From Colwellia sp. (lineage in GTDB: Bacteria > Pseudomonadota > Gammaproteobacteria > Enterobacterales > Alteromonadaceae): a stretch of 64,000 bases of DNA. Below the pieces are notes generated by a model. It searched no databases and was not told the DNA's origin. It was given only the letters and a program-made list of their open reading frames with translations. A program made the translations under genes and the position numbers. Positions 19,753-60,602 of this stretch are shown here, one piece after another. The number at the start of each line of letters is the position of its first letter. The first letter of the stretch is position 1. The DNA lies in contig JABSOZ010000016.1 in NCBI GenBank assembly GCA_013215295.1, positions 62,001 to 126,000 on the forward strand, in the 5' to 3' direction.

Positions 19753-20811
19753 ATGACGAAGAAACAAATAACACGATTACTCAGAATTATATTCATTATT
19801 GCAAGTATAATCTCCTTGTTCTTCGTACCATGGATATTGGTAAAGGCTTGGATTTTACCACTACCCGATACCGTTCAAGAACAAGTTAATGAAACTATCG
19901 GTCATGGGTTTGACGGTATGATTGTGTATGTTGATGAGGCTGGTAAATCACCATATTTTTATAGTGCTGGTTTGAAAAGTAGAAAGAACAAGGTACCCGC
20001 CGATGCTCAATCCTTGTTTAAAATTGCCAGTATCAGTAAGTTGTATGTCGCTGTTGCTGTCGCCAAATTGGCTAATGATCAGCGTTTGAATATAGAAAAA
20101 ACGCTTGCTGATTATATTCCTTCATTGAAGGGGCGAATTGCACATGCAGATAAAATCACCTTGAAGTTGATGGTGCAACACCGCAGCGGTATCCCCAATT
20201 TCACCGATCACCCTGGTTATTGGGAAAATCCTCCAGAAAACAGTGAACAAAGACTTGATTTGATATTAGATAAGCCTGCTGATTTTGAGCCTGGTGCGGA
20301 ATATAGTTATTCAAATACGAATTTTCTATTGATTGGCGAGATCCTCGATAAAATATTAGGATATAGCCATCGTGAGTATATTAAGCAAGAAATTCTTAAG
20401 CCTCTCGGGCTAAATAATACTTACAGTTTACTCAGTGAAGTGGATTTAGACGAAGTTGCAAGTGGTTATTATGTAGGTTATGAAGCCGATATGAAATTTA
20501 ATTATAATTCTGTAGGAATTAGTGGTTCAATGGTGGCGACAGCGCAAGATGTTGGGATATTCATACGGGCATTAAACGATGGTTCTTTGTTAAACGAAAA
20601 TGAACAAGCTATTTACTCTGCCATTTATGTCTATAAGCACGGCGGTTTATTACCTGGATATCAAAGTCTTGCTGAGTACCACAAAGATATAGACACGGTT
20701 GTCATTCAATTTTTGAATACAACTGATTTTGATGGCTACCAATGGAATTTATCTCAAATCGCCTATAATCGGATTGTAAAAATCATCAGACGTGACCAAG
20801 CTGATGAGTAG
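19753..20811 (+). CDS. Serine hydrolase, class C beta-lactamase family
   Basis: 352 aa with an N-terminal membrane helix (residues about 10-33) that acts as anchor or uncleaved signal. The active-site set of the family is present: Ser93-x-x-Lys96 (SISK), Tyr186 in YSN, and HGG near 296-298 in the place of the KTG triad. These proteins include peptidoglycan DD-peptidases, esterases and amidases as well as AmpC-type enzymes. Nothing here points to antibiotic resistance. It follows the acyltransferase set on the same strand after 85 bp. Confidence 0.9.
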   Translation: MTKKQITRLLRIIFIIASIISLFFVPWILVKAWILPLPDTVQEQVNETIGHGFDGMIVYVDEAGKSPYFYSAGLKSRKNKVPADAQSLFKIASISKLYVAVAVAKLANDQRLNIEKTLADYIPSLKGRIAHADKITLKLMVQHRSGIPNFTDHPGYWENPPENSEQRLDLILDKPADFEPGAEYSYSNTNFLLIGEILDKILGYSHREYIKQEILKPLGLNNTYSLLSEVDLDEVASGYYVGYEADMKFNYNSVGISGSMVATAQDVGIFIRALNDGSLLNENEQAIYSAIYVYKHGGLLPGYQSLAEYHKDIDTVVIQFLNTTDFDGYQWNLSQIAYNRIVKIIRRDQADE

Positions 20812-20829: not shown

Positions 20830-21834
20830 TTAAGGTTGAAATTTAGTCACTGATTTTCTTGATAATAATGTGGGTGAAAACACATGTTGAATATGTAAAT
20901 CTTCAACTTTATATACATTTTGTAAAACTAACTTCGCACTCATTCTGCCCATTGAATAGACGGGGTTGTCGATTGTTGTGAGTTTAGGATAAAGATAATT
21001 CGCAAAATTAACATTATCAAAGCCCATGATTGATAAATCTTCGGGTAATCTAAATCCGTGTTCTCTTGCGTACTTCATCGAGCCTGAAGCCATCTCATCA
21101 TTGGCACAAACGATGGCAGAAAAAGAGACTTTCTTATTAATAAAGTGTTTTAAACCCTCTGTACCACCCGTTTCTTTAAAATCACCAATATATAGCAGGT
21201 TTTCATAGAAGGGAATGTTTTGCTCTGCAAGTGCTCTTTTATGACCCGTTAAGCGGGTACTAGCATCAGTTTTAAATAAAGGGCCTGCTATATAAGCAAT
21301 ATCTTTGTGCCCTAAGTCAATCAATGCTTTTGTCGCAAGATAACCCCCCATTTCATTATCTAAACTGATGCAGTTATCAACGAGTTTATCAACATATCTA
21401 ATCATTAAGTATATTGGGGTTTTACCTTTACTTAATTCAATTAAATATTCGTCACTTACCGCTTCAACGTGAATAATTATCGCATCACAACTGCGACTGA
21501 AGAGAAATTCAATGCCATCTTTTTCTTTTTCTTCTTCACTGTGTCCTGTTGTAATAATAACGTGCTTACCGGCAGCTCTTAACTCTGATTCTATGCCCGC
21601 CATCATTTGACCGAAAAATGGCCCGTGCAGTTCAGAAACTAAAACGCCAATACTATTAGACCGACTTGATGCCAGTGATTGTGCAATTGAGTTAGGACGA
21701 TAGTTTAACTCTTTCATTGCTTCTTCAACTTTTACCCGTGTCTTTTCGCTGACTTTAGCATTTTTATTCATTACTCTAGAAACAGTTGCTAAGGAAACGC
21801 CTGCAAGTTTAGAAACTTCGTAAATTGTAGCCAT
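20830..21834 (-). CDS. LacI-family transcriptional regulator of the glucan locus
   Basis: 334 aa. The N-terminal helix-turn-helix reads TIYEVSKLAGVSLATVSRVMN, followed by the hinge region NYRPNSIAQSLASSRS and a periplasmic-binding-protein-like sensor domain (IGVLVSEL to the C-terminus). ATG 21832-21834 is chosen because the DNA-binding domain begins right there and AGGACG lies upstream; an earlier in-frame ATG at 21888 adds 18 residues without family similarity. It is the last gene after a GPH symporter and a GH1 beta-glucosidase on the minus strand. As the only LacI-type protein in the window, it is the best candidate to bind the AGCGCT-centred sites at 24.9, 34.2-34.5 and 60.6 kb, with a beta-glucoside or breakdown product as inducer (inference). 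Confidence 0.93.
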   Translation of the reverse strand: MATIYEVSKLAGVSLATVSRVMNKNAKVSEKTRVKVEEAMKELNYRPNSIAQSLASSRSNSIGVLVSELHGPFFGQMMAGIESELRAAGKHVIITTGHSEEEKEKDGIEFLFSRSCDAIIIHVEAVSDEYLIELSKGKTPIYLMIRYVDKLVDNCISLDNEMGGYLATKALIDLGHKDIAYIAGPLFKTDASTRLTGHKRALAEQNIPFYENLLYIGDFKETGGTEGLKHFINKKVSFSAIVCANDEMASGSMKYAREHGFRLPEDLSIMGFDNVNFANYLYPKLTTIDNPVYSMGRMSAKLVLQNVYKVEDLHIQHVFSPTLLSRKSVTKFQP

Positions 21835-21860
21835 GAACGTCCTGTTGGTACGGGTAGTGG

Positions 21861-21903
21861 ATGTGGTATTAATAAAATAATACCACATAGATTAACGCGT
21901 TAA
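21861..21903 (-). promoter_or_regulatory. Hairpin and palindrome in front of lacI-type gene
   Basis: An 11-bp perfect stem (arms 21861-21871 and 21878-21888, six-base loop) ends 27 bp before the regulator's start codon, and is followed by the 12-bp palindrome TTAACGCGTTAA at 21892-21903. The stem has no T run, so it may be an mRNA processing or attenuation element. The palindrome has the central CG typical of LacI-family operators and could serve autoregulation. Confidence 0.5.
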
Positions 21904-21940: not shown

Positions 21941-23470
21941 TTACGTAGTTAATGCACGTTTTTGAGCTAAGTCATCACTAATTTGTTGGCTTTTATTGCA
22001 AGAAAGCGGATATAACATCATTAATGCCGCGGCAGCAAAAGCAAAAGCAGCAGGGATCCAACTCATCAGTAATTGCATACCGGGTAATGCGCCATCAATG
22101 GTGCTTTTATCCATGCCATCGTACCCGTAACCCGCTAGCACGACTAAAACTAATGCACCCGCAAATCCGCCACCTGTTTTTTGAACAAAAGTACCTGCAG
22201 AGTATATTAAGCCTGTTGCTCTGCGGTTATTTTTCCATTCAGAATAATCAGCACTATCACCTAACATAGTGAAAAATAACGTTGGCATCATGGCAGCAAA
22301 AAATTCAGCAGAGCATCCTAAAACAAAAATGGCTTGAATGTTTCCTGCAGGTACCCAGTAGAAGCCGGCAGTTAATATTCCACTCGCTAATAAAGCGACA
22401 ATAAAAAGTTTTTTCTTACCCAATATTTTTGCTAAATATCCAGTGCACAAAGCGCCTAAGATTGAGACTAAAAGCAGACCGATAAAATATTTACCTGCCA
22501 TTAATTCATCACCTATTTGGTATTTAAAGTAATAAGCAATAACGCCATATTTTATGCCATTGAACATCATGGTTAAAAATCCCATGCCCAATAATATTAA
22601 CCAAGGTTTGTTGGTTAGTAAGTCCATCATATCTTGTTGGGTGCCACTTAAATTTTTAATATCTTTATTTAATAGGCGTTTTATCAGACGCCACATAATG
22701 AATGCAACAGCAAAGAAGAATAGAGCAGTGTACAAATTTCGATAATAGAAAAATAAAGTTATCGCTAATAAAGGTAAAATAATAAAAGGTAAGTTTTTAC
22801 TTAAATCAATTAAATCTGATTTCAAGCTATGAGACGTATCTACCTTAGAGGTGACTCGCTCTTTTGTCGTGAAAAAGGTTACTAGCATTAATCCTGTCAA
22901 CAAAGCAGCAAATAAGTACATAGTGTATTGATAACCTTGAGCGTCATTCCCCTGACCAAAGTAGGCAACTAAATCGGGTAGAAATCCCATAACCAGTAAT
23001 CCCCCAGCAAAAGCACCGGCAAAGCGAAAACCTGAAAGGCTAGTGCGCTCAGTATTACTTGGCGTCATTACACCCATTAAGGCTGAGTAGGGCACATTAT
23101 TCACGGTATAAGCGAGTGTTAAGCCAATGTAAGTCGCGTAGGCATAGATGAGTTTGTTGGTATAACTGAACTCAGGCGTAGTAAAACAAAGCACCATAAA
23201 TAGGGCTAAAAAGGGTGTCGACCATAAAATCCAAGGGCGAAATTTCCCCCAAGGTGTATTTGTTCTATCCGCTATCATGCCCATGATAATATCGGTGACA
23301 CCATCCGTTAAACGCACCACTAAAAATAGCATGGCAGCGGCGGCAGCGGTTAACCCAAAGGTATCCGTATAAAAAACAGCCAAATAGGCTAAAGCGCCAC
23401 GCCAAACTAAATTGGCCGCAGCATCTCCCATGGCGTAACCCACTTTTTCATAATATGGCAGTTTATTCAT
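21941..23470 (-). CDS. GPH-family sugar:cation symporter
   Basis: 509-aa inner-membrane protein of the glycoside-pentoside-hexuronide group within the major facilitator superfamily, with 12 helices and a soluble insertion after helix 6. Diagnostic pieces are GYAMGDAAANLVWRGALAY near the N-terminus, VRLTDGVTDIIMGMIADRT with the substrate/cation region, and TPWGKFRPWILW. It sits 22 bp behind the GH1 gene and ahead of the LacI gene. It probably imports beta-glucosides or short glucan oligosaccharides that GH1 then splits. A paralogue lies at 34655. Confidence 0.92.
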   Translation of the reverse strand: MNKLPYYEKVGYAMGDAAANLVWRGALAYLAVFYTDTFGLTAAAAAMLFLVVRLTDGVTDIIMGMIADRTNTPWGKFRPWILWSTPFLALFMVLCFTTPEFSYTNKLIYAYATYIGLTLAYTVNNVPYSALMGVMTPSNTERTSLSGFRFAGAFAGGLLVMGFLPDLVAYFGQGNDAQGYQYTMYLFAALLTGLMLVTFFTTKERVTSKVDTSHSLKSDLIDLSKNLPFIILPLLAITLFFYYRNLYTALFFFAVAFIMWRLIKRLLNKDIKNLSGTQQDMMDLLTNKPWLILLGMGFLTMMFNGIKYGVIAYYFKYQIGDELMAGKYFIGLLLVSILGALCTGYLAKILGKKKLFIVALLASGILTAGFYWVPAGNIQAIFVLGCSAEFFAAMMPTLFFTMLGDSADYSEWKNNRRATGLIYSAGTFVQKTGGGFAGALVLVVLAGYGYDGMDKSTIDGALPGMQLLMSWIPAAFAFAAAALMMLYPLSCNKSQQISDDLAQKRALTT

Positions 23471-23492: not shown

Positions 23493-24821
23493 TTATCGAT
23501 TACTGATTAGCGTTTTATACGCATGACCACTATTTTTTATTGTTCTCAACTGGCTCTCATAATCAACATATACAATGCCGAATCGTTTTAAGTAGCCTTC
23601 TGCCCATTCAAAATTATCCATTAAACTCCAGGCAAAATAGCCCTGAATGTCTACGCCACTTTCAATCGCATCGTTAACCGCCAATAAATGTTGCTGATAG
23701 TAATCAATTCTGTCTTGGTCAATAACTTCATTATTAACAATTTTATCATCAATAGCTGCACCATTTTCAGTGATATACACAGGCGGTAAATTGTAACGCT
23801 CATTGAGTGATATTAATAACTCGCTAAAAGCTTTTGGAAAAACTTCCCAACCAATATCAGTCAACTTTCCTGTTGCGGGTAATTCATCAAAATAATCAAC
23901 ATCGGAAGCTTGATATACTGCACGGGTGTAAAAATTAACCCCTAAAAAATCGACAGGATGAGAAATTATTGCCATATCCTCTCGATGAATGTCCGGATGA
24001 CAGCTTTGTGGGAGTTGCTGCATTATTTCTGGGTATTTACCGTCGAAAATAGGTTTGATATACCATTGATTAAAGTAATCGTCTGCAAAGGACGCCGCTG
24101 TAATGTTTTCAGGTTTATCATCAATAGCATAAGCAGGGGTAAAGTTTAATACAATACCATTAAGAGAGTCAGGGCTATTTTTGGTTAATACCGACATAGC
24201 AAGACCATGGGCAAGTAATAGATGATGAGCGGCTTTTTTACCGTTTTCTCTTCCTACTAACCCTGGCGCATGAACGCCAACCTCATAACCTAAATAAGCA
24301 CTACAAAATGGTTCGTTTAGTGTGGCATATGAATGAACACGGTCACCAAAAGCTTGTGATATTAAATCGGCATATTGTTGAAATTTATAAGCAGTTTCTC
24401 TATTGAGCCAACCACCATTGTCTTCCAAGTGCTGAGGTAAATCCCAGTGATAAAGCGTCACAAAGGCTTTAATATTTCGTTTTTTGAGTTCATTCAAAAT
24501 ATCGAGATAAAAATTAACGCCTGTTGAATTAAGTTCACCTGACTCGGTTATCACTCTTGGCCACGAAATAGATAATCTATAGGCATCTACACCGAGTGAG
24601 TCAATGAGTTCAATATCTTCTTTCCAGTGATTATAGTGATCACAGGCAATATCGCCATTTGAACCGTCGACAACAGTATTTTCTTTTGCGCAAAAGGTAT
24701 CCCATATGCATGGTAATCTTTTCTCTGAAGCGCCCTCTATTTGGAATGACGCTGTCGCCACTCCATAGGTGAATTCTTTTGTTAGCATCTTTGAATTTAA
24801 CGGTAATGAAATCTTATTCAT
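23493..24821 (-). CDS. GH1 beta-glucosidase
   Basis: 442 aa without a signal peptide, so cytoplasmic. It shows the full GH1 (BGL-type) pattern: FTYGVATASFQIEGA and IWDTFC at the start, LYHWDLPQHLEDNGGW, acid/base Glu170 in TLNEPF, nucleophile Glu352 in YITENGAA, and the substrate-binding WSLMDNFEWAEGY near the end. It cuts glucose from beta-glucosides such as cellobiose, laminaribiose or gentiobiose. It leads a minus-strand operon with a GPH symporter and a LacI regulator. Two LacI-type operator sites lie 55-124 bp upstream. Confidence 0.96.
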   Translation of the reverse strand: MNKISLPLNSKMLTKEFTYGVATASFQIEGASEKRLPCIWDTFCAKENTVVDGSNGDIACDHYNHWKEDIELIDSLGVDAYRLSISWPRVITESGELNSTGVNFYLDILNELKKRNIKAFVTLYHWDLPQHLEDNGGWLNRETAYKFQQYADLISQAFGDRVHSYATLNEPFCSAYLGYEVGVHAPGLVGRENGKKAAHHLLLAHGLAMSVLTKNSPDSLNGIVLNFTPAYAIDDKPENITAASFADDYFNQWYIKPIFDGKYPEIMQQLPQSCHPDIHREDMAIISHPVDFLGVNFYTRAVYQASDVDYFDELPATGKLTDIGWEVFPKAFSELLISLNERYNLPPVYITENGAAIDDKIVNNEVIDQDRIDYYQQHLLAVNDAIESGVDIQGYFAWSLMDNFEWAEGYLKRFGIVYVDYESQLRTIKNSGHAYKTLISNR

Positions 24822-24875: not shown

Positions 24876-24889
24876 TGAAAGCGCTTACA
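24876..24889. promoter_or_regulatory. LacI-type operator site 1
   Basis: TGAAAGCGCTTACA, a near-perfect palindrome around AGCGCT, 55 bp upstream of the GH1 start and in the region shared with the divergent sugar transporter at 25105. It is paired with a second copy 56 bp away. Confidence 0.85.
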
Positions 24890-24931
24890 AGTTCATTTTT
24901 AAAAAAAACGCTAAGTGAGTAAAAAATACTG

Positions 24932-24945
24932 TGAAAGCGCTTACA
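24932..24945. promoter_or_regulatory. LacI-type operator site 2
   Basis: An identical TGAAAGCGCTTACA in the same orientation, 56 bp (centre to centre) from site 1. The paired arrangement suits a tetrameric or looping repressor, or one site for each of the divergent promoters. Confidence 0.85.
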
Positions 24946-25104
24946 TTTAGGTTAATGTGTTCTACAGAAAAGGTCAATAGCTTTTAAACTCTTCTTGATG
25001 TTTTTTTATTCATTAAACATCTTTAAGGCGATAAATTGCCTTTGATTAAAACAATAAATAAGCATGCCGATTAAAAGGTAATGATTTTTGTCAGGAGAAA
25101 TACA

Positions 25105-26379
25105 ATGGTTGATAGTCCACTTAGTAGTCAAGTATCTCAAGAAAATAATAATGGACATGAAAATTATCGTTTCGCACTACTATCTTTAACTTCATTATTT
25201 TTTATGTGGGGCTTCATTACTTGTTTAAATGATATTTTAATTCCTCATTTAAAAAGTGTTTTTAATTTATCTTATACGCAAGCCATGCTGGTACAATTTT
25301 GTTTTTTCGGTGCATATTTTATTGTGTCTATTCCAGCCGGAAAAATTATTAAATCAATAGGTTATCAAAGAGGAATTGTGCTAGGTTTAGTCATTGCATC
25401 AATAGGGTGTTTTACTTTTTATCCTGCGGCCTCACAACATAGCTACCCAATATTTCTTCTTGCGCTCTTTATTCTTGCCAGCGGCATAACGATATTGCAA
25501 GTATCCGCTAACCCTTATGTAAGTTTGCTCGGTGAAGCCAAAACAGCATCTTCAAGATTAACGATGACACAAGCCTTTAATTCTTTGGGCACGACAGTAG
25601 CGCCATTTTTTGGTGCTTTCCTTATCTTAAACAGCGCTGCCGATGCAATGTCTATTGAAGCAAGTGCAGAGTCGGTACAATTACCTTATGTCTTATTAGC
25701 AGGCACCTTATTATTGCTTGCGGCAGTATTTTCAATGATAAAACTGCCAAAATTTGAAACCGTTAAACAAGATGAAGCACAAAATGTTGTACCTGAGTCA
25801 GGCAGTGCTTGGCAATACAGACATCTTGTTTTAGGCGCTGTTGGTATTTTTGTTTATGTAGGGGCTGAAGTTTCGATAGGCAGCTTCTTAGTCAGTTTTT
25901 TTAATGACCCAGACATTGCGGGTTTAGAAGAGTCACAAGCCGCTAATTATATTGCGTATTATTGGGGAGGGGCAATGATTGGTCGCTTTGTCGGTGCATT
26001 CGTTATGCAAAAAATAGCCGCAGGTAAAGTATTAGCGTTTAATGCGGTTATTGCCATTTCTTTTATATTGATGGCCATTTTTACCAGTGGTGCAGTCGCA
26101 ATGTGGTCAATTTTATTGGTAGGTCTGTGTAATTCGATAATGTTTCCAACTATATTTAGTCTCGCTATTAATGGATTAGGGCAACATACCAGCCAAGCTT
26201 CTGGTATTTTATGTTTGGCTATTGTTGGTGGCGCAATTTTACCCTTACTGCAAGGCGTTACCGCTGATGCTGTTGGTGTACAAAATTCATTTATTTTTCC
26301 GGCATTATGTTACGTGTTTATTGTCTATTATGGTTTATTGGGGAGTAAGCCAAGTAAGTCAAATTTATCAGATCAATAA
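25105..26379 (+). CDS. Sugar MFS transporter, GluP/FucP type
   Basis: 424 aa with 12 membrane helices. It carries the FHS-subfamily signature [20 protein letters not shown], then [20 protein letters not shown], and [13 protein letters not shown] in helix 5. Members take up glucose, galactose, fucose or N-acetylglucosamine with protons or sodium. ATG 25105 is chosen because AGGAG ends 7 bp before it; the in-frame ATG at 25081 has no such site. It is divergent from the GH1 operon and shares its operator region. It is followed after 24 bp by a halogenase-family gene. A close paralogue is at 42495. Confidence 0.91.
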
Positions 26380-26403: not shown

Positions 26404-27915
26404 ATGTCTAAACCTATAAATAAAATTGTGATTGTTGGTGGAGGTTCTACCGGTTGGATGGCTGCTGCTAGTCTTTCTCGGTTTATTGAAGATAAAGAAA
26501 TATCCGTTACCTTAATCGAGTCACCTGATATTCCTACTGTCGGGGTTGGTGAAGCAACGATTCCTAATATTGTTGGTTTTAATAAAGACTTAGGTATAGA
26601 TGAAGTTGAATTAATTAAAGCGACTCAAGCGACTTTCAAGTTAGGTATTGAATTTGAAAATTGGCATAAGAAAGGCGAGAATTTTTTTCATCCTTTCGCT
26701 GATTACGGTCTTAAGATACAAAATGTCGACTTTCATCATTATGTTAATCGCGCAAAACAAGCCGGCGCTAAGCACAATTTACAAGATTATAGCTTTGCTT
26801 GTGCGTTGGCTAAACAGGGAAAATTTGCCCAAGCAAACTCTGATCCTCAATCACCTTTGGCCGATTATTCCTATGCCTATCATTTTGATGCGGTACTTTA
26901 TGCTAAATTTTTACAAGAATTTTCAGTTAAAAGGGGGATTAAACATATTTCGGCCAATGTTTGTGCTGTGCAATTAAATCAAACGTCTGGTTTTATTGAG
27001 TCGGTTCAATTAGCAGATGGACGAAAAATTGAAGGTGACTTATTTATAGATTGCTCAGGGTTCAAAGCGTTATTAATTGATGGAGCAATGGAGGTAGGGC
27101 TTGATGATTTAAGTAAATCTTTACCCTGTGATAAAGCTATTGCTGTGCAAACTGAACTGGTAACAGACCCGACACCATATACGCGTGCCATTGCTAATAA
27201 TGCTGGATGGCAATGGTGTATTCCTTTGCAGCACCGCATGGGAAATGGTTATATATATAGTAGTCAGTTTATTAATGATCAAGATGCAGAAGATGAAATG
27301 CTGGCAACTGTTGATGGAAAAACGATTAATGATGTTAGACATTTTGATTTACCTTTGGCCAAGCGTAAAGTTATTTGGCATAAGAACTGCTTCGCTTTAG
27401 GGTTAGCCGCCGGGTTTCTTGAACCGCTTGAATCTTTAGGCTTATCTTTGATCCAATCAGGCTTAGCAAAGCTCTATACTTTCTTTCCTGATATGTCGTT
27501 TAATGAACATGACATGGCAGAAGTGAATAGATTACATAATGCTGAGTTAGACCGCGCCGTTGATTTTTTAGCGTTGCATTATAAATTAACCAAACGAGAT
27601 GATACGGAATTTTGGCGTTACTGTCAGAATATGCCAATAAGCGCTGCGTTAACCCATAAAATAGAGGTTTATAAAAGCCAAGGTCAGATTGTTATGTATG
27701 ATAATGAATCGTTTGAAGAAGCGAGTTGGTTAAGTATGTTCACAGGCTTTGATGTAAACCCACAACGTTTTGATGTTAGAGCTAAAAATATCCCACTAGA
27801 GATTATTGAAAGAAACTTGGCTGAAATGAAAATGTCGATGAATAGTGCAGCGCAACAAGCAATGACTCATCAACAGTTTCTTGATAAGCATTGCCGCGCA
27901 GACCGAGATATTTAG
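26404..27915 (+). CDS. Flavin-dependent halogenase-family protein 1
   Basis: 503 aa, tryptophan-halogenase family. The FAD-binding GGGSTGWMAA is at residues 12-21. The catalytic Lys79 (ATFKLG), the WxWxIP motif (269-274, WQWCIP) that blocks monooxygenase activity, and Glu343-Ser344 (EPLES) are all present. Their numbering is close to that of tryptophan 7-halogenase PrnA (Lys79, Trp272/Trp274, Glu346/Ser347). The family needs reduced FAD from a separate reductase, none of which is seen in the window. Marine Proteobacteria often carry such genes next to TonB-dependent receptors of sugar loci, where their substrate is unknown. It lies in tandem with the GluP transporter under the LacI-type operators. 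Confidence 0.88.
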   Translation: MSKPINKIVIVGGGSTGWMAAASLSRFIEDKEISVTLIESPDIPTVGVGEATIPNIVGFNKDLGIDEVELIKATQATFKLGIEFENWHKKGENFFHPFADYGLKIQNVDFHHYVNRAKQAGAKHNLQDYSFACALAKQGKFAQANSDPQSPLADYSYAYHFDAVLYAKFLQEFSVKRGIKHISANVCAVQLNQTSGFIESVQLADGRKIEGDLFIDCSGFKALLIDGAMEVGLDDLSKSLPCDKAIAVQTELVTDPTPYTRAIANNAGWQWCIPLQHRMGNGYIYSSQFINDQDAEDEMLATVDGKTINDVRHFDLPLAKRKVIWHKNCFALGLAAGFLEPLESLGLSLIQSGLAKLYTFFPDMSFNEHDMAEVNRLHNAELDRAVDFLALHYKLTKRDDTEFWRYCQNMPISAALTHKIEVYKSQGQIVMYDNESFEEASWLSMFTGFDVNPQRFDVRAKNIPLEIIERNLAEMKMSMNSAAQQAMTHQQFLDKHCRADRDI

Positions 27916-27966
27916 TTAAAATACGGGCAGACTCTCGATGTAAATGACTGCATTTTTATTATGTAG

Positions 27967-29481
27967 TTATATTTTTTTAGCTTTGCAGTATTCATTTATA
28001 AATTGGTCATGAGAAGGTTGTTGCTGTGCAATATCCTTCAGTCCTTGACTACCTTGAGCCAAAATATCCTTTAGTTTTTCACTGTCCCATATATTTAATG
28101 TTGGGTTGTAGTTGTCTGGTTGTACACCTAATCCTTCAAGTACTGCGTACCAACTCGTTGGCCGAAATAACGCTTCATCTTTAAGATTGAGGGCACCAGA
28201 GGCTTTAAATAGTTTTAACTTTTGTTCAAGTGTTTCAGGCAGTTCCATGCTTTTACACCATTGCCAGAAATCACTGTCGGTTCGAGATGTTTTACAATAA
28301 TGCAGCACTAAAAAGTCCCGTATTTCTTCATAATCAACCCTAACATTTTGGTTGAATTGATCAATTAAGGCCGGTTCACAGTTTTTGTTTGGAAATAGCC
28401 GAATAAAATGAGCAATAGACTTTGATACTAAGTGAATAGCTGTCGATTCAAGAGGTTCTATAAAACCCTGAGCAAGCCCTAAAGACAGGCAATTTTTAAC
28501 CCAAGACTTCTTTCGCATTCCGGTGGTAAACGGAATTGTTCTTGGCTCGTTGATAACTTCGCCTTTTACTGACGCAAGCAATGTTTTTTTAGCTTGCTCG
28601 TCTGTAATGTACTTGTCACAATAAACATAACCATTTCCGGTACGATGCTGCAGTGGAATATGCCACATCCAGCCCGCTTCTTTTGCTGTAGAAGTGGTAA
28701 AAGGAGGAGTAGCACCAACATTTTTTGTTTGTACAGTAACGGCCTTATTACAAGGTAGGTAATGTGACCATGATTCATATCCAGCTTTAAGTGCTTTTTC
28801 TATTAATAGGCCATGAAATCCCGAGCAATCAATAAAAAAGTCTGCGGCTATTTGTTGACCACTCTTTAAAACTAAGTTGGCGATATTACCATTAGCCTTT
28901 AAGTTGACACTTTCTACCAGTCCTTCTGTTCTTATAACACCAATATTTTCTGCAAAATTACGTAGGTATTTCCCTGCCAAAGATGAATCTAAATGTAAGG
29001 CATAAAAAGCACGAGAAAGTGGCGTGTTTTTGGCTTTATGGGGTAAAAAGAACTTACCTTGCGCTGCTAAAACTGATTCAGCAGAATGTGCCATCAAGGG
29101 TGTTTTGTCATTTTCAGCTTTGCACTTAAGCCAGCATTGATAAAAGTCAAAGCCGTCAATACTTTGCCCTAAAGTACCAAAGGGATGAAAGTAAGATTCT
29201 CCAACGGTACCCCAATCTTCAAATTTAATGCCTAATTTGAAACTGGCTTGTGTTTCCTTGATAAAATCAACAAGGTCGATACCTAAGCTCTCGATAATAT
29301 TTATTAATGGTGGGATTGTAGCTTCGCCCACACCAACAATACCGATGTCATCAGATTCTACAACCTCTATCTTCATCGATGTGTTCTTAAAAATATTACC
29401 TATGGTGGCTGCTGCTAACCAACCAGCTGTGCCTCCACCGAGGATGACTATTTTTTCTATGGGATCTTCAGTAGTGTTCAT
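27967..29481 (-). CDS. Flavin-dependent halogenase-family protein 2
   Basis: 504 aa with the same architecture: GGGTAGWLAA at the FAD site, Lys82 in QASFKLG, the WMWHIP motif, and EPLESTAIHLV carrying the Glu-Ser pair. All residues thought necessary for halogenation are present, so inactivity cannot be claimed from sequence. The gene overlaps the stop of halogenase 3 by four bases (27967-29481 against 29478), showing coupled translation downstream of the TonB-dependent receptor. It converges on halogenase 1 with only 51 bp between stops. By eye it is clearly paralogous to, but well diverged from, the other two. Confidence 0.88.
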   Translation of the reverse strand: MNTTEDPIEKIVILGGGTAGWLAAATIGNIFKNTSMKIEVVESDDIGIVGVGEATIPPLINIIESLGIDLVDFIKETQASFKLGIKFEDWGTVGESYFHPFGTLGQSIDGFDFYQCWLKCKAENDKTPLMAHSAESVLAAQGKFFLPHKAKNTPLSRAFYALHLDSSLAGKYLRNFAENIGVIRTEGLVESVNLKANGNIANLVLKSGQQIAADFFIDCSGFHGLLIEKALKAGYESWSHYLPCNKAVTVQTKNVGATPPFTTSTAKEAGWMWHIPLQHRTGNGYVYCDKYITDEQAKKTLLASVKGEVINEPRTIPFTTGMRKKSWVKNCLSLGLAQGFIEPLESTAIHLVSKSIAHFIRLFPNKNCEPALIDQFNQNVRVDYEEIRDFLVLHYCKTSRTDSDFWQWCKSMELPETLEQKLKLFKASGALNLKDEALFRPTSWYAVLEGLGVQPDNYNPTLNIWDSEKLKDILAQGSQGLKDIAQQQPSHDQFINEYCKAKKI

Positions 29482-30998
29482 ATACGTTCCTTAAAACCAC
29501 AATGTTGATTTAAAAAATCACTGTGCGTTTGTGAATTATTAACCTTATTTTTAATGCTATTACGCATTTTAGTCAGTTCATTAGATAATAATTCAGTAGA
29601 AAACTTATCAATAGATTTATCATAAAATTCGGGCCTAAAATTGAGTCCGTCAAATATAGCTAACCAACTGTCCTTACCAAATATTTCCCAAGGATATTTA
29701 ATAATATCTCCCTTGGTTTTAAAAGCGGCTATTTTATCGGCTAATGTTTGTGGAACGGCCAAGTCGCGACAATGTTGCCACATGGGAGAGTCAGTTCTGC
29801 CATTTAATTTATAATGAAGAATAATAAAGTCACGGACACGCTCGTATTCTTGCGCCATGGCATAATTGAACTTATCAGCGTCTTCTTGAGAGTATTCAGC
29901 TTCAGCCAAAAAGGATGATATTTTTTCAATAGCCGTTTCAACTAATGCAATACTCGTGCTTTCTAACGGCTCTAAAAATCCAGAGGCTAAACCAACGGCG
30001 ATACAGTTTTTGTTCCAGGACTTTTTGCGTCTACCTGGAGTGAAAGAAAATGAACGAGGCTCATGAAGCAGCTTACCTTTTATATTTTTCAACATACTAT
30101 TGATAGCTTCATCTTCACTGATAAATTCTCGACTGAAAACTATGCCATTACCCGTTCGGTTTTGTAAGGGAATTTGCCATTGCCAACCCGCTTTTTGCGC
30201 ATGGGAAATAGTATAGGGTACTGGATCAGCTACTAACTCACTTTGTACCGCGGCAGCGGTATCACAAATTAAATATTGACTCCAATCTTCATAGCCAGTT
30301 TTTAACGTTTTTTCAATGAGTAAAGCACTAAATCCCGAGCAATCAATGAATAAATCACCAGAAATTGTGAGACCATTTTCTAGGTTAAGACAATCGATAT
30401 CCTCTGTTAAACAATTTAAATTGACTTGTTCAATTTTACTATCGATGTGCTTCACACCATTATTAATTGAATAATCACGCATCAACTTAGCAAATAGACC
30501 CGCATCAAAATGTAGTGCCCAATCGAATATTTCCAATTGATTTTTTGGTTGAATTATTGGCTGAATGAACTTGTCGTTTTTAGCTAATTGCACACCGAGT
30601 GAATAATCCGCGAAAGGCGTTTTATCACCACTTTGGCGTAGCTTAGTAAAATAATGATGAAATGGAACACGATTGACTTCTTGACCAAACAAGCCAAACG
30701 GATGAATAAAAGCGCTTTCGTCGCCAGACCATCCCTTAAATTCAATACCTAATTTACACGTAGCATTGGTTGCCTTAAGTACTTCAATATCGGTAAAGCC
30801 TAATTTTTTATAGAAGCGCCTTAGTGTGGGTATCGTTGCTTCACCTACGCCTATTGTTCCCATGGCGGATGAAGCAATTAGGGTTATATTGACCGGGCTT
30901 TCTTTAAATTGTTGGCTTAACGTTGCCGCTGTCATCCAACCAGCTGTTCCGCCGCCAACAATAATGATATCTTTCACTGATTTTTTGATGGCATTCAT
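29478..30998 (-). CDS. Flavin-dependent halogenase-family protein 3
   Basis: 506 aa from the Met at 30998, which places the start at the same distance from the GGGTAGWM FAD motif as in the two paralogues; the frame itself is open up to a TTG at 31076. Lys in ATCKLG, WQWQIP and EPLESTSIALV are all present. None of the possible starts has a good ribosome-binding site, so the N-terminus is uncertain. It lies directly behind the TonB-dependent receptor (receptor stop at 31087) and is translationally coupled to halogenase 2. The trio probably modifies, or senses through flavin chemistry, something brought in by that receptor; this is speculative. Confidence 0.87.
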   Translation of the reverse strand: MNAIKKSVKDIIIVGGGTAGWMTAATLSQQFKESPVNITLIASSAMGTIGVGEATIPTLRRFYKKLGFTDIEVLKATNATCKLGIEFKGWSGDESAFIHPFGLFGQEVNRVPFHHYFTKLRQSGDKTPFADYSLGVQLAKNDKFIQPIIQPKNQLEIFDWALHFDAGLFAKLMRDYSINNGVKHIDSKIEQVNLNCLTEDIDCLNLENGLTISGDLFIDCSGFSALLIEKTLKTGYEDWSQYLICDTAAAVQSELVADPVPYTISHAQKAGWQWQIPLQNRTGNGIVFSREFISEDEAINSMLKNIKGKLLHEPRSFSFTPGRRKKSWNKNCIAVGLASGFLEPLESTSIALVETAIEKISSFLAEAEYSQEDADKFNYAMAQEYERVRDFIILHYKLNGRTDSPMWQHCRDLAVPQTLADKIAAFKTKGDIIKYPWEIFGKDSWLAIFDGLNFRPEFYDKSIDKFSTELLSNELTKMRNSIKNKVNNSQTHSDFLNQHCGFKERI

Positions 30999-34149: not shown

Positions 34150-34163
34150 AGTAAGCGCTTTCA
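34150..34163. promoter_or_regulatory. LacI-type operator site 3
   Basis: AGTAAGCGCTTTCA, one base off the consensus TGWAAGCGCTTWCA, 43 bp upstream of the receptor start codon. Confidence 0.8.
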
Positions 34164-34208
34164 TCAATTAATCAAGTTGCCGTGTGTAAGGGAAAATCAA
34201 CAAACCAA

Positions 34209-34222
34209 TGAAAGCGCTTACA
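34209..34222. promoter_or_regulatory. LacI-type operator site 4
   Basis: TGAAAGCGCTTACA, identical to sites 1 and 2, centred 59 bp from site 3 in the promoter region of the TonB-dependent receptor. Confidence 0.85.
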
Positions 34223-34473
34223 TCAAAGCTAAATGATATTTAAATTAAGATCAAACTTTATTTTTGTTTTTAATGAAAATAATTCACTAAATAGTTATGG
34301 ATCTTGCGGAAATTTTCCTTATCTTGTTGATGTTGCACAGTTATTATTTAATTTATGAAACATTGAACTTTTTTGATAATTATAATAATTTAATAAAAAG
34401 TTTAGTAAAATTAAAATATTTTGCCAGTTTACCTTCATTTTTCTACCTAAAAACAGCGAAAATAAAAAAACAA

Positions 34474-34487
34474 TGAAAGCGCTTTCA
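34474..34487. promoter_or_regulatory. LacI-type operator site 5
   Basis: TGAAAGCGCTTTCA, a perfect palindrome that extends to 18 bp (34472-34489). It lies on the side of the divergent region that faces the GPH/GH94 operon. Confidence 0.88.
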
Positions 34488-34542: not shown

Positions 34543-34556
34543 TGTAAGCGCTACCA
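34543..34556. promoter_or_regulatory. LacI-type operator site 6 (weaker)
   Basis: TGTAAGCGCTACCA, left half-site intact and right half degenerate, centred 69 bp from site 5 and 99 bp before the GPH symporter start. Confidence 0.7.
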
Positions 34557-34654: not shown

Positions 34655-36034
34655 ATGGACAATGAAAGTAATATTTTAAAGCTAAAAGAAAAAATAGGTT
34701 ATGCCTGTGGAGATGTTGCCAGTAATTTCTATTGGCGGGTTTTTGATGTATTTCTATTTATTTTTTACACGGATGTTTTTGGCTTGTCGGCAGGGGCTGT
34801 TGGCACCATGATGCTGGTAACTCGTTTGATTGATGCTATTTCAGATCCCTTTATGGGCGCATTAGCAGATAGAACAAACACCAAATATGGTAAATTCAGA
34901 CCTTATCTACTTTGGGGAATTATTCCCCTTGTTGCTGCCGGTGTTTTAACGTTTACGGTTCCTGACTTTGATGATAGCGGTAAGCTTATTTGGGCATACG
35001 CTACTTATATTTTCATGATGCTTGCTTATACCTTTATTAATGTACCCTATGGGGCATTACTTGGCGTGATCACCGGTGATTCTCAGCAAAGAACAACACT
35101 GACAAGTTTTCGATTCATTGGTGCTTTTACTGGGGGGAGTTTGGTTGCCTATTTCACCCCCGAATTAGTGAGTTTTTTTGGCGGAGATAACGAGGTGAAA
35201 GGCTGGCAAATGACCATGGCTCTATATGGTGCTATTGCCGCGATACTTTTTGTTATTAGCTTCCTGTCGACAAAAGAAAGGCTGGCACCGCCAAAAAATC
35301 AGCAAACACCGGTTAAACAAGACCTTAAAGATTTAACGCAAAATAAGCCTTGGATTGTACTTTTTGTTTTAGCGTTAATTATTATGATGACGATTACCTT
35401 ACGAGGTAGTTCTGGGACATTTTATTTTAAATACTATGTTGATAGAGCTGACCTTATTGGCAGTTTTTCAATGGCTTATATGTTGTCGTTAGCCTGTGGC
35501 GCAGCGTTAACGCCTTTATTAACTAAATACATTGATAAGCGTAAATTGCTTATTATTTTGATGGTTATCGTTAGCATATTATCACTAGTTTTCTATTTTG
35601 TGCCTAAAGAAAACATTACGACTATGTATTGCTTACAAATCGCTATTGGCTTGGCGCTGGGACCAAAATCTCCGTTAGTGTATTCCATGTATGCAGATAC
35701 GGTTGACTATTCTCTGTGGAAAACAGGTCGACGTGCAACCGCGATGATTTTTTCTGCTGCAGCATTTGCACAAAAATTAGGTGGGGCATTAGCAGGTGCC
35801 ATGATGGGCTGGGTATTAGCTTCTTTAGGTTATGTTGCTAATCAAGTTCAAAATGGCGCCTCTGAACACGGCATTGTTTTACTGATGACACTGATCCCTG
35901 CTGTCTTCGCTTTTATAGCGGTTGGGGTTATTTGGCTTTACCCGCTGACAGATAATAAGCTTATTGAAATTCAGTATTCACTAAAAATTAATACTGCTAA
36001 AGAAAAGGTGATTTTGGAGAGCCAAAATGTCTAA
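34655..36034 (+). CDS. GPH-family symporter, aldonic/beta-glucoside operon
   Basis: 459 aa, 12 helices, with GYACGDVASNFYWRVFDVF at the N-terminus, VTRLIDAISDPFMGALADRT and TKYGKFRPYLLW. It is a paralogue of the symporter at 21941 but without the longer central insertion. AGGTGAG precedes ATG 34655. Its 3' end overlaps the GH94 start by eight bases, so both are coupled. In this operon it probably brings the disaccharide substrate of the GH94 phosphorylase across the inner membrane. Controlled, by inference, through operator sites 5 and 6. Confidence 0.92.
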   Translation: MDNESNILKLKEKIGYACGDVASNFYWRVFDVFLFIFYTDVFGLSAGAVGTMMLVTRLIDAISDPFMGALADRTNTKYGKFRPYLLWGIIPLVAAGVLTFTVPDFDDSGKLIWAYATYIFMMLAYTFINVPYGALLGVITGDSQQRTTLTSFRFIGAFTGGSLVAYFTPELVSFFGGDNEVKGWQMTMALYGAIAAILFVISFLSTKERLAPPKNQQTPVKQDLKDLTQNKPWIVLFVLALIIMMTITLRGSSGTFYFKYYVDRADLIGSFSMAYMLSLACGAALTPLLTKYIDKRKLLIILMVIVSILSLVFYFVPKENITTMYCLQIAIGLALGPKSPLVYSMYADTVDYSLWKTGRRATAMIFSAAAFAQKLGGALAGAMMGWVLASLGYVANQVQNGASEHGIVLLMTLIPAVFAFIAVGVIWLYPLTDNKLIEIQYSLKINTAKEKVILESQNV

Positions 36035-38420
36035 ACTTCCTTTATACACGATAGAAAACCCAGGAAGTAGTGACTCAAGAGTTAACTTAAATTGCCCAAC
36101 GTCATTACCAAAAGCCGCTGGATTTTTATGGAACAAAAATATGATGATTCAAATGAATTGTCAAGGTTATGCTGTTTCACAATTCTTGCAACCAGAGCCC
36201 GCAAAATATTCATATGCTCCTTGTATTGAAGCAAAAACTTTTATGCAGCCTGAACACCATTATTATCGTGATCATCCGGGGCGTTTCTTTTATGTCAAAG
36301 ATGAAGATACAGGAGAAATATTCTCTGCTCCTTATGAACCGGTTAGGGCTGGTCTTGATAGTTTTTCATTTTCTGTGGGTGATCATGATATTAAATGGAA
36401 AGTTGAAGCCTTAGGTCTATGTGTTGAACTTACTTTGTCGCTTGGTGTTGATACGCCCGTTGAACTTTGGTCTGTGGTTATTACAAATATCAGTAAAAGT
36501 AAAATTAACCGCAATATTAGTTTTTATCCCTATTTTACTATTGGTTATATGTCGTGGTTGAATCAATCAGCAACTTACAATGCAGAACTCAATGCCATTG
36601 TTGCCAAGGCGATAACCCCTTATCAAAAAGTTGACGATTATTACAAAAACCAACATTTTAAAGATCATACGTTTCTTGTCTCAGATTGTGTGCCATCAGC
36701 ATGGTCTGCAAATCAAACGACGTTTGAAGGAATTGGCGGTCTGCAAAACCCTGATGAAGTTCATCAAGACGTGCTGAATTGTCAATCATCTTGTTATGAA
36801 GTTCCGGTTGCCGTTTTACAGTATAAAATCACCCTGTTCAGCAACTCAGCTAAACATATTAATTTATGTTTTGGTGCTGCAAAAGATGAACATGAAATAT
36901 TTGACATAAAACAAAAATATCTCAGTAATGAAATTAATTTTTCAAAAGAAAAAGCGAGCTATAAGGATTATTTATCTCAGGCTTCAGGTTGTTTAACGAT
37001 AAAGTCGAATGATGAAAGTTTTGACGACTTTGTTAACCATTGGCTGCCAAGGCAAATGTTCTATCATGGTGATATAAATCGTCTAACAACAGACCCCCAG
37101 ACAAGAAATTATCTTCAAGATAATATGGGCATGAGCTATATTAAACCGGATATTGCACGTCAATCTTTTCTCATCGCGTTAGAACAACAACACAGAAGTG
37201 GAGCAATGCCTGATGGTATCTTAATCCATCGTGATGCGACTCTGAAATATATTAATGAAATACCCCATACCGACCACTGCGTATGGTTACCTATTTGTTT
37301 AGTGGTTTATCTAAATGAGACGGATGACGGGTCCATTTTAAATGAACTTATAGCTTTTGCTGATTCTGAAGAACGGTTAACCGTGCATCAGCATATTGAG
37401 CTAGCACTAGACTGGTTACTTGAACAAACTGATGAAAGGGGACTGAGCTATATAAACCAAGGTGATTGGTGTGATCCCATGAATATGGTGGGACATAAAG
37501 GCAAAGGCGTTTCTGCTTGGCTATCAATGGCTACTGCTTATGCGCTTAACTGCTGGAGTGACATTTCTCAACATTATCTTTCAACAGTAGATAAAAGTCG
37601 GTTAGAAGATTATCGTTATGCAGCAAAAGCGTTAAATAAATCCATTAATAAACATTTATGGGATGATGACTGGTTTGCCCGCGGTATTACTGATGAAGGG
37701 AAAATCTTTGGTGTAAAAACCGATACAGAAGGGCGAATTTATTTGAACCCTCAGTCGTGGGCTTTATTGAGTGGCATTGCGAATGTAGATCAAAAATCAA
37801 GTATGATCAATGAAGTTGAACAGCAACTGTTAACACCTTATGGTGTGATGATGTTGGCCCCAAGTTACACTAAAATGGATGAACGTATCGGACGAATAAC
37901 CCAGAAGTACCCCGGTGTTTCTGAAAATGGTTCTGTCTATAATCATGCTGCCGTATTCTACGCCTATGCATTATTCCAGCAAGGTGAATCACAAAAAGCC
38001 TTTGATATCATTTATAAAATGATCCCCAATATTAAACATGCTGTAGAACAAGGGCAGTTACCGGTATTTATACCAAATTATTATCGTGGCGCTTATTATC
38101 AACACCCTAAACAAGCCGGTCGATCAAGCCAGTTATTTAATACCGGCACCATAGCATGGTTATACCGCTGTTTAGTTGAAGAATTGTGTGGTTTGAAAGG
38201 TAGCAATGGAGAGTTAACCATTGCTCCACAACTTCCTGATTGTTTTGATTACCTGAGCGGCACTCGGAGTATTCAAGGAGCTACATTTAATTTTTCGATT
38301 GAAAAAGCGGCAATTAAACGGATAAGTTTGGATCTAGACGGCGAAACTTTATCGGGGAATATTATTACCAATATTCAGCCTAAACATACCTATAATTTAA
38401 AAATAACCGTTCCAAAATGA
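36027..38420 (+). CDS. GH94 disaccharide phosphorylase, probably cellobionate-type
   Basis: 797-aa cytoplasmic enzyme of glycoside hydrolase family 94 (inverting phosphorylases, two N-terminal beta-sandwich layers, then an (alpha/alpha)6 barrel). The general acid is Asp480 in NQGDWCDP, and the phosphate/acceptor region SENGSVYNHAAVF follows near residue 630. GH94 includes cellobiose, chitobiose, laminaribiose and cellobionic acid phosphorylases. Arg623 and Lys627 (RITQK) are spaced like the Arg609/Lys613 pair I recall as binding the gluconate carboxylate in the Saccharophagus cellobionic acid phosphorylase, and the length is close to that enzyme's. The next gene is a gluconokinase overlapping by four bases. 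Together these favour aldonic disaccharide + Pi giving glucose-1-phosphate + gluconate. Plain cellobiose or laminaribiose remains possible. Confidence 0.88.
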   Translation: MSKLPLYTIENPGSSDSRVNLNCPTSLPKAAGFLWNKNMMIQMNCQGYAVSQFLQPEPAKYSYAPCIEAKTFMQPEHHYYRDHPGRFFYVKDEDTGEIFSAPYEPVRAGLDSFSFSVGDHDIKWKVEALGLCVELTLSLGVDTPVELWSVVITNISKSKINRNISFYPYFTIGYMSWLNQSATYNAELNAIVAKAITPYQKVDDYYKNQHFKDHTFLVSDCVPSAWSANQTTFEGIGGLQNPDEVHQDVLNCQSSCYEVPVAVLQYKITLFSNSAKHINLCFGAAKDEHEIFDIKQKYLSNEINFSKEKASYKDYLSQASGCLTIKSNDESFDDFVNHWLPRQMFYHGDINRLTTDPQTRNYLQDNMGMSYIKPDIARQSFLIALEQQHRSGAMPDGILIHRDATLKYINEIPHTDHCVWLPICLVVYLNETDDGSILNELIAFADSEERLTVHQHIELALDWLLEQTDERGLSYINQGDWCDPMNMVGHKGKGVSAWLSMATAYALNCWSDISQHYLSTVDKSRLEDYRYAAKALNKSINKHLWDDDWFARGITDEGKIFGVKTDTEGRIYLNPQSWALLSGIANVDQKSSMINEVEQQLLTPYGVMMLAPSYTKMDERIGRITQKYPGVSENGSVYNHAAVFYAYALFQQGESQKAFDIIYKMIPNIKHAVEQGQLPVFIPNYYRGAYYQHPKQAGRSSQLFNTGTIAWLYRCLVEELCGLKGSNGELTIAPQLPDCFDYLSGTRSIQGATFNFSIEKAAIKRISLDLDGETLSGNIITNIQPKHTYNLKITVPK

Positions 38421-45827: not shown

Positions 45828-47288
45828 CTAATAAACGATGGTTTGCATCGCGTGCTGAGGGATAGTCAACACTGACTGTTGACCATCGATAATGAAATTG
45901 TATTCAATTTGTTTATCGGTTTCGTTCATGATAATCGTTGCCATCTTGTTATCTTCGTTGACAAACGATGTCGCCAATAAAAAGCTACGACTGCTGCTGG
46001 TACTCACTCGGTATGCGTTAGGTCGAACAAACTTAGAAAAATGTCCGATATAATAATACGTTGGTGTATATATTAACTCACCCGTTCTGGTATCAGCATG
46101 CAAGGGCGCATAACAAAAATTACTGACATGATTTGGCCCACCATTTTGGTCCAATAATATATTCCAATCAGTCCAACCAACAGTGCCGCGATTAAAATCT
46201 TTTATCATCGAATTGCCATAACGTTCTGCATTTGGCCAATATTGATATCGATCCGCTCTAAAACCTTCATTTGTTCCTTCTGTGAATAACAAATTCATTT
46301 TTGGATATGACTCATTAATTAAGGCAAGATTATCATGCATAGTTTCACCACCAGCCCATGTCTCATACCAATGAAAACCAATTCCCCACGCATACTTTGC
46401 CGCTTCTGGATCATCAAAAATGGTATTTGCACGATTGGTGATCAAATCGCGGTTATGATCCCAAACCACAATGTTCTTATCACCGTAACCGGCTTTCTCC
46501 ATCTGTGGACCTAAGTTGTTTTTCAAGAAATCACGTTCTTCCTCAGCCGTATAAATCATCGACTCCCAACGTTGTACAGCCATAGGTTCATTCTGAATAG
46601 TGACTCCCCAAATAGGCATACCTTCTGCTTCGTACGCTGCAATGAACTTCGTAAAGTATTTCGCCCAGGTATCGTAATATTCAGGAAGTAACTTTCCGCC
46701 TTGTAACATGTTATTATTGCTTTTCATAAAAGCAGGAGCACTCCAAGGACTTGCGTATAGCAGTAACTCTCCACCGGCAGCTTTTATCGCTCTCTTAATA
46801 AGGGGGATCCTAAACTCACGATCATGCTCAATACTAAATGTAGATAATGATTTATCGCCTTCTTTAATATAGGTATGACTACCGCTGCCAAAATCAGAAC
46901 TGTGTATCGTCGTTCGAGCCAAAGAATAACCAATACCCTCATCTTTATCATAATAAGCTGTTAACATTTCACGCTGCTTTGCTGGCGGTAATTTAGCAAA
47001 AACTTCTGCACTTGCGTCGGTAATTGCGCCACCAAATCCCAGAACCTTTTGAAAGCGTTTATTAGGATTTACAAAGATAGACACTTCTCCTTCTGTAGGT
47101 TGAACGGCCGGTGTTAATGTCGTTTTAAGCGTAAGGGTCAGACGTTGGTCAGTATCTTTAGCGGTAGTGTAAACCTCAATAGTTTTAGCAACCGATTGAG
47201 CTGCCTGAACTTCCATGATTAGCGCTGTAAAGTTGCAAACAGCCAAGCAGCTAAACAATACTGGCGCCATAATGTTTTTTCGAGTCAT
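45828..47288 (-). CDS. GH30 glucosidase/glucanase (beta-1,6-glucan candidate)
   Basis: 486 aa with a signal peptide ending VQAAQ. GH30 landmarks are clear: GFGGAITDASAEVF, SLARTTIHSSDFGSGSHTY, YASPWSAPAFMK, acid/base Glu234 in IQNEPMAVQRWESM, nucleophile Glu337 in LLFTEGTNEG, and the C-terminal beta domain with YYYIGHFSKFVRP. The family includes beta-1,6-glucanases and beta-glucosidases. In a laminarin-type locus the natural task is removing beta-1,6-linked glucose branches, which is inferred from context. It is exported to the periplasm or beyond. It lies 160 bp downstream of the GH5 gene on the same strand. Confidence 0.92.
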   Translation of the reverse strand: MTRKNIMAPVLFSCLAVCNFTALIMEVQAAQSVAKTIEVYTTAKDTDQRLTLTLKTTLTPAVQPTEGEVSIFVNPNKRFQKVLGFGGAITDASAEVFAKLPPAKQREMLTAYYDKDEGIGYSLARTTIHSSDFGSGSHTYIKEGDKSLSTFSIEHDREFRIPLIKRAIKAAGGELLLYASPWSAPAFMKSNNNMLQGGKLLPEYYDTWAKYFTKFIAAYEAEGMPIWGVTIQNEPMAVQRWESMIYTAEEERDFLKNNLGPQMEKAGYGDKNIVVWDHNRDLITNRANTIFDDPEAAKYAWGIGFHWYETWAGGETMHDNLALINESYPKMNLLFTEGTNEGFRADRYQYWPNAERYGNSMIKDFNRGTVGWTDWNILLDQNGGPNHVSNFCYAPLHADTRTGELIYTPTYYYIGHFSKFVRPNAYRVSTSSSRSFLLATSFVNEDNKMATIIMNETDKQIEYNFIIDGQQSVLTIPQHAMQTIVY

Positions 47289-47448
47289 TGGAAAATCTCT
47301 GTTATTTCATTGTTATATGATTAGAAAACAGCATCACATTCGTTTAAGGGAAACTCATATAATGCTGTGTAAAGAAGAAACTTCTGATGAGCAATATCGC
47401 TGAATAATTAAATTTAGCGATATTGCTATTTACAGACGGATATAGCCG

Positions 47449-54325: not shown

Positions 54326-54457
54326 AATAATTTACCCTTAATAACGCTTCGATGAGCTGTTATTTTATAAACTTCAGTGTCATAGTATTTTTAAGTGTTC
54401 AACTCTAACGACAGGTCACTTCGCTACATGGCTCGGTGACTCGAAAGAGCTATACTT

Positions 54458-60588: not shown

Positions 60589-60602
60589 TGAAAGCGCTTT
60601 CA
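60589..60602. promoter_or_regulatory. LacI-type operator site 7
   Basis: TGAAAGCGCTTTCA, a perfect palindrome identical to site 5, 31 bp before the GH3 start codon. It connects this gene to the regulon 26-36 kb away. Confidence 0.87.

Follow-up and report, generated by a model that had tools for sequence, protein, structure and literature searches.

BrvH-type halogenases of Colwellia in a portable TonB-receptor cassette with an apparently changed sugar regulon

A stretch of 64,000 nucleotides from Colwellia sp. (assembly GCA_013215295.1, contig JABSOZ010000016.1; hereafter the window) carries three genes of the flavin-dependent halogenase family, here called HAL1, HAL2 and HAL3, beside a gene for a sugar-type TonB-dependent receptor. 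These halogenases, which are of the BrvH type, form with the receptor a portable cassette whose sugar regulon has apparently changed. The cassette comprises HAL1 on the forward strand and HAL2, HAL3 and the receptor gene on the reverse strand. A first-pass annotation of the window had placed three halogenase-family genes at 26404-30998, one following a sugar transporter and two coupled genes following a TonB receptor, and both statements were borne out. All three proteins scored 552-574 bits with the Pfam profile Trp_halogenase (PF04820; cut-off 21), spanning profile positions 1 to 454-456 of 458, and all three are encoded by full-length, complete open reading frames (ORFs). HAL1 begins 24 bp past the stop of an MFS sugar transporter gene, whereas the HAL2 start and the HAL3 stop overlap by 4 bp behind the receptor gene, from which HAL3 is separated by 88 bp. 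The receptor scored 467.6 bits with TIGR01782 (curated cut-off 310).

The same four genes recur in two further loci of the genus (L019 and L020) and in the loci L031, L032, L126, L127 and L128 of relatives, with lower identity in L033 and L034. In L020 HAL1 is inverted and the receptor is cut, on a short contig that shows no glucan genes; in L128 an insertion separates HAL2 from HAL1, and L129 is limited to HAL2, HAL3 and the receptor. L031 breaks off at a contig end before the receptor, which is incomplete in L032 and L127. In all, the cassette spans several genera. In five of these loci (L031, L032, L126, L127 and L128) the cassette has a chitin context, adjoining GH20, BcrAD-type kinase and NagA genes, with a NagP-type transporter also beside it where the stretch extends that far. 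Between the window and the chitin-linked cassettes, identity was 56-61% for HAL1, 58-70% for HAL2, 50-59% for HAL3 and 66-73% for the receptor (four receptors, two of them partial).

The operators of the two contexts differ. Allowing at most one mismatch, the palindrome TGWAAGCGCTTWCA occurs six times in the window against 0.04 expected, and 11 times in the 5.77-Mb genome against three for a control, the same pattern read backwards; of the six exact sites genome-wide, five lie inside the window. Because these sites stand before GH1 and MFS-HAL1, before the receptor-HAL3-HAL2 unit and GPH-GH94, and before one GH3 gene, the co-regulation of the halogenases with beta-glucosidase genes that the first-pass annotation had proposed is upheld. 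A single palindromic operator that precedes several units here and is scarce in the rest of the genome is what a LacI-type beta-glucoside regulon would show, and the LacI protein encoded in the window likely acts on these sites. At the same tolerance, no site was found before the MFS/GH3 unit ending at 43820 or at the GH30, GH5 and GH16 genes of the window. The chitin loci carry instead the operator TGACARCGYTGTCA, exact in L031, L032, L126, L127, L128 and L129, the repressor of which is presumably NagR. The nag locus of the window genome itself has three copies of this operator, and none was found in the window at up to one mismatch. L019 and L020 carry exact copies of the window-type operator. 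The regulators follow the same division: the window LacI has a 90% identical counterpart in L019, and the LacI of the L126 cassette is 80% identical to that of the window genome's nag locus versus 33% to the window LacI.

In a concatenated-protein tree rooted on L034, the window, L019 and L020 (bootstrap 100) are sister to the chitin-linked L031, L126 and L127 (bootstrap 100), and L032, L128 and L129 branch outside both groups. Because the window branch is nested among cassettes with the TGACARCGYTGTCA operator, the cassette apparently was rewired from the chitin to the glucan regulon on that branch. A change at the halide site of HAL1 falls on the same branch: residues 343-346 are ESLG in the window genus versus ESTS in the chitin-linked orthologues. 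For substrate comparison, the chitin-linked and the glucan-linked versions of this cassette form a natural pair. The locus L030 is the same contig stretch as L019, and this duplicate was left out of the halogenase and receptor alignments and of the Mantel tests described below.

Relation to known halogenases

In an alignment of 240 homologues, HAL1, HAL2 and HAL3 all keep the GxGxxG motif, the catalytic Lys, Glu-Ser and WxWxIP (K79, E343 and S344 in HAL1), and the catalytic Lys and Glu are kept in 223 and 224 of the homologues, respectively. The annotated Lys, WxWxIP and Glu-Ser residues therefore stand in all three copies. After Glu-Ser at the halide site, where Thr followed by Gly or Ser would be expected, HAL2 has T-A, HAL3 T-S and HAL1 L-G. 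The PrnA-like numbering claimed for HAL1 holds for K79, but its closest structures are others. By sequence, the nearest solved structures of all three proteins are 9luq (entry title: Pseudoalteromonas sp. L11 tryptophan halogenase), BrvH from Brevundimonas (6frl) and Xcc4156 from Xanthomonas campestris (6y1w). The first of these is the top match of HAL1 (446.9 bits), BrvH that of HAL2 (461.7 bits) and HAL3 (569.4 bits), and Xcc4156, about 40% identical to HAL1, is the third-best match of each. Some profile and structure-library searches used HAL3 from 31001, one residue longer than its likely start. A structure model of HAL1 built with 50 aligned relatives (predicted local distance difference test, pLDDT, 92) gave template-modelling (TM) scores of 0.93-0.95 to the three structures (0.94-0.95 for BrvH, 0.93-0.94 for 9luq). 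PrnA, RebH and PyrH share the fold (TM about 0.9), the K79 numbering and WxWxIP, but are 30-34% identical to HAL1, and no biosynthetic cluster was seen here. HAL1, HAL2 and HAL3 belong with BrvH, Xcc4156 and 9luq, not with PrnA and RebH, by sequence for all three and by fold for HAL1.

The long Trp-binding loop of RebH (residues 440-467), which covers the substrate, is short in BrvH (PMC5945002), and the C-terminal loop region of HAL1, HAL2 and HAL3 aligns gap-free to BrvH (423-501 or nearby). As judged from this alignment, the three proteins have a short, BrvH-length substrate loop rather than the long Trp-backbone-binding loop of tryptophan halogenases proper, and they are predicted to be of the open-pocket type. 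An open site has been reported for Xcc4156 (PMC7336383), the abstract of which suggests larger substrates, possibly peptides. Both BrvH, with which HAL1, HAL2 and HAL3 share the catalytic residues, and Xcc4156 halogenate model substrates in vitro and do not accept free tryptophan (PMC5945002, PMC7336383). Both enzymes have been solved structurally and are active in vitro, but a natural substrate is not known for either. The BrvH gene was reported beside a second halogenase gene, as in the clusters described here, but without a receptor or sugar context, the words 'TonB' and 'receptor' being absent from the text (PMC5945002).

In a survey of bacterial genomes, 83 of 103 halogenases were not part of a biosynthetic cluster (PMC8269204), so a context other than secondary metabolism is common. 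In agreement with the first-pass annotation, no secondary-metabolite genes were found among the window proteins scanned, which cover part of the window ORFs. Its statement that the window lacks a flavin reductase holds for PF01613, the only reductase family searched (Fre-type reductases were not), whose single match in the genome is on a different contig.

Receptors, partner genes and altered paralogues

The association with receptors extends well beyond the window. Its genome has seven PF04820 genes in five loci, and in four of these no more than about 135 bp separate the halogenase match from a TIGR01782 receptor. Six genomes of the genus, including this one, gave 43 PF04820 match rows, up to 18 per genome and including a few fragments; one halogenase copy broken by internal stops (G004:C64:130762-132140, in L028) lies in a genome that gave 18. 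Across the family of the window, PF04820 was found in 55 of 59 genomes (one by a weak match, 3.2e-5), with 396 matches in total. Receptor and halogenase are adjacent in 20 of 23 own-genus stretches (the window and L008-L029) and form a same-strand single run in 22, as judged by eye; five of these stretches are GlcNAc loci (L010, L024 and L026-L028). Among 80 named relatives, which are Alpha-, Beta- and Gammaproteobacteria according to their record titles, 61 have a receptor no more than 600 bp from the halogenase run, and 69 have one anywhere in the locus. Genes of these wider loci were found by profile matches on six-frame ORFs, with a receptor profile built from own-genus receptors rather than TIGR01782, and a receptor sited between halogenases was scored as gap 0. 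The 59 family genomes, as distinct from the 80 loci, hold at least 438 TIGR01782 receptors in about 250 Mb, which puts chance proximity at about 1%. In the same genomes, halogenase and receptor copy numbers correlate with rho 0.64, or 0.55 after genome size, uncorrected for relatedness. Genome annotations often show such halogenase-receptor pairs. No description of the link was found in the titles and opened passages of the literature matches listed, from a search that subscription papers lay outside.

SapC (PF07277), at times with Cupin_8 (PF13621), appears repeatedly in receptor-halogenase operons of the genus (L013, L015-L017, L024 and L026-L029). The two families occur in nine and five of the 23 own-genus sources versus three and 13 of the 80 wider loci; they are therefore common in this lineage but not general partners. 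Across the 59 genomes, SapC and halogenase numbers correlate with rho 0.78, or 0.73 after genome size, again uncorrected for relatedness. Cupin_8 proteins are hydroxylase-type. The cassette in the window contains neither family. A structure model of SapC from three sequences (pLDDT 50.6) was too poor for use.

Eighteen of the 240 halogenases form a single clade (support 1.0) of catalytically dead paralogues that has lost both the catalytic Lys and Glu (15 sequences) or one of them (three). They come from L035, L038, L042, L049, L059, L061, L065-L067, L069, L070, L074, L078, L080, L086, L095, L104 and L107 (for example, L065:7051-8463), and none of the window proteins is among them. In all 18 loci the altered copy is the second halogenase in a run of two to four; L066 and L080 are without a receptor within the available stretch. 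These copies diverge faster, with a median identity of 27% versus 53% for first and third genes. In the 16 operons with both an altered copy and a receptor, correlation with the receptor was 0.46 for active and 0.54 for altered copies, which may reflect species relatedness. The clade hints at a multi-subunit organisation.

Possible functions

The three enzymes appear to be tied to the receptor and not to any one sugar. In a subset of 30, the Mantel correlation between halogenase and receptor was 0.20 (2 of 500 permutations); that between halogenase and LacI was 0.08 (77 of 500, n = 30) and that between receptor and LacI 0.46 (0 of 500, n = 30). This direction, together with the occurrence of the cassette in two sugar contexts under two operators, favours a receptor-accessory enzyme with a generic target. 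The explanation that we prefer, with moderate confidence, is that HAL1, HAL2 and HAL3 are working FADH2-dependent, open-pocket halogenases of the BrvH and Xcc4156 kind that act as accessories of sugar-type TonB receptors and not as enzymes of glucan breakdown. Sugar would relieve a LacI-type repressor, so that receptor and halogenases are made together. Since a signal peptide was not seen by eye in the halogenases (a predictor was not used), they are probably cytoplasmic. There they would take FADH2 from a general reductase and bromide or chloride to form HOX, which the Lys/Glu site would pass to an indole- or phenol-bearing target, probably bigger than free tryptophan. Such a target may be common to receptor use, whether an envelope peptide or protein or a generic indole compound, and not the sugar of the locus itself.

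Several observations weigh against this explanation. The correlation between halogenase and receptor is weak even in the larger sample (Mantel r 0.23, 0 of 500 permutations, n = 83). In the fifth halogenase locus of the window genome the receptor is 5 kb off on the opposite strand, and 11 of the 80 wider loci have no receptor, although five of them (L031, L051, L073, L081 and L096) end at contig ends. The change to ESLG means that halide use by HAL1 could differ or be lost; BrvH itself has ESTS. The halide site of BrvH is, however, formed by backbone amides (PMC5945002), and a side-chain change there is therefore not decisive. Because the receptor moves with the halogenases, the receptor protein and its ligand are not separable as targets, and as the receptor is 66-67% identical over its full length between contexts, its ligand may be common to both and be the target. 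A search for a halogenation site in the receptor, comparing 83 linked with 14 unlinked sequences among 111 aligned (14 ambiguous ones being excluded), found no aromatic column specific to linked receptors. Linked receptors were not richer in Trp (1.40 versus 1.28%, p 0.31) and were poorer in Tyr, His and Met. Two of the unlinked receptors sit in halogenase-bearing loci, more than 6 kb away; the alignments omit the duplicate first receptor of L116, receptor matches below about 2300 nt and halogenases below about 1300 nt.

The receptor-site result lowers our estimate of a protein-directed form of this explanation and remains compatible with a site that varies, or with a different envelope protein as the target. 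In that form, the halogenases, joined in related loci by SapC and Cupin_8, would halogenate aromatic side chains of the receptor or of envelope proteins before export, and the altered second halogenase of multi-copy operons would be a substrate-recognition subunit. We regard it as unlikely; if true, it would mean that bacterial receptor halogenation is turned on by sugar repressors. It is possible that HAL1, HAL2 and HAL3 are instead small-molecule halogenases, which would add bromine or chlorine to a free indole or phenol that the receptor takes up or the cell itself produces, yielding a signal or a compound that inhibits competitors during feeding. A receptor that moves with the enzymes could import such a substrate, and a marine experiment attributed transcripts annotated as rebH or prnA to Colwellia sp. 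MT41 and phages (PMC11337851). In vitro, BrvH can brominate indole, an activity abolished by K83A, but it does so slowly and its authors doubt that indole is the natural substrate (PMC5945002); the four-gene cassette, moreover, has no biosynthetic or export gene.

The first-pass annotation had tied the chemistry to the glucan, with the enzymes modifying algal phenolics bound to or released with the polysaccharide. This would suit the operators held in common with GH1, GPH and GH3 genes and the GH16/GH5/GH30 locus downstream, but the tie to glucan or its phenolics is weakened by the same block standing beside GH20 and NagA genes under another operator. In addition, the second receptor of the glucan region has no halogenase, and halogenase divergence does not track LacI, which together make this proposal improbable. 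Equally hard to credit is that the proteins are no longer halogenases and act as halide-free flavin monooxygenases or redox proteins on receptor-linked material. The ESLG of HAL1, the clade without catalytic Lys, Glu or both, and weak NCBIfam similarity to QhpG, LodB and GoxB (all far under cut-off) point that way; the latter three are flavoproteins that act on proteins. Against it stand the WxWxIP, Lys and Glu retained in all three window proteins and the in vitro halogenation by BrvH and Xcc4156 of the same group. Returning to enzymes that accompany a receptor, the association with sugar-type receptors and the apparent regulon switch of one cassette turn the annotation 'tryptophan 7-halogenase' into a testable question, namely why a receptor, or its ligand, would need a halogenase.

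Other genes of the window

The wider surroundings of the cassette comprise GH1, two MFS_2/GPH-type symporters, GH94, GH3 and LacI genes, with GH30, GH5-CBM6 and GH16-CBM6 further down (Table 1).

Table 1. Coordinates of the cassette, its neighbours and the operators in the window
Feature	Position	Strand	Remarks
HAL1, flavin-dependent halogenase family PF04820, BrvH/Xcc4156/9luq-like	26404..27915	+	ATG start; halide motif ESLG
HAL2, PF04820	27967..29481	-	ATG start at 29481; halide motif ESTA
HAL3, PF04820, nearest BrvH (569 bits)	29478..30998	-	likely ATG 30998; halide motif ESTS; TTG-started ORF also open, extending to 31076
TonB-dependent receptor, sugar type TIGR01782	31087..34107	-	likely ATG 34107; TTG-started ORF extends to 34167
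MFS sugar transporter (gluP-type)	25081..26379	+	probable operon partner of HAL1
GH1 beta-glucosidase	23493..24821	-	divergent from MFS-HAL1, two intervening operators
GPH-type sugar symporter	21941..23470	-	
LacI/GalR-family repressor	20830..21888	-	likely regulator of the operators
MFS_2/GPH-type symporter and GH94 gene	34655..38420	+	divergent from receptor
GH3 gene	60634-63198		downstream of single operator
Two operators TGAAAGCGCTTACA	24876..24945		between GH1 and MFS-HAL1
Three operators	34150..34487		between receptor-HAL3-HAL2 unit and GPH-GH94; extra degenerate site near 34543 (by eye)
Operator TGAAAGCGCTTTCA	60589..60602		upstream of GH3 gene (60634)

The interval 45828-56962 holds laminarin-type genes, namely GH30, GH5-CBM6, a second TIGR01782 receptor (51248-54325) and GH16-CBM6; neither a halogenase nor an operator of the HAL regulon was found with this receptor. 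A serine-hydrolase gene at 19753-20811 has weak similarity to class C beta-lactamase/AmpH, far under the cut-offs of all 25 families shown, and probably encodes an ordinary esterase or peptidase.

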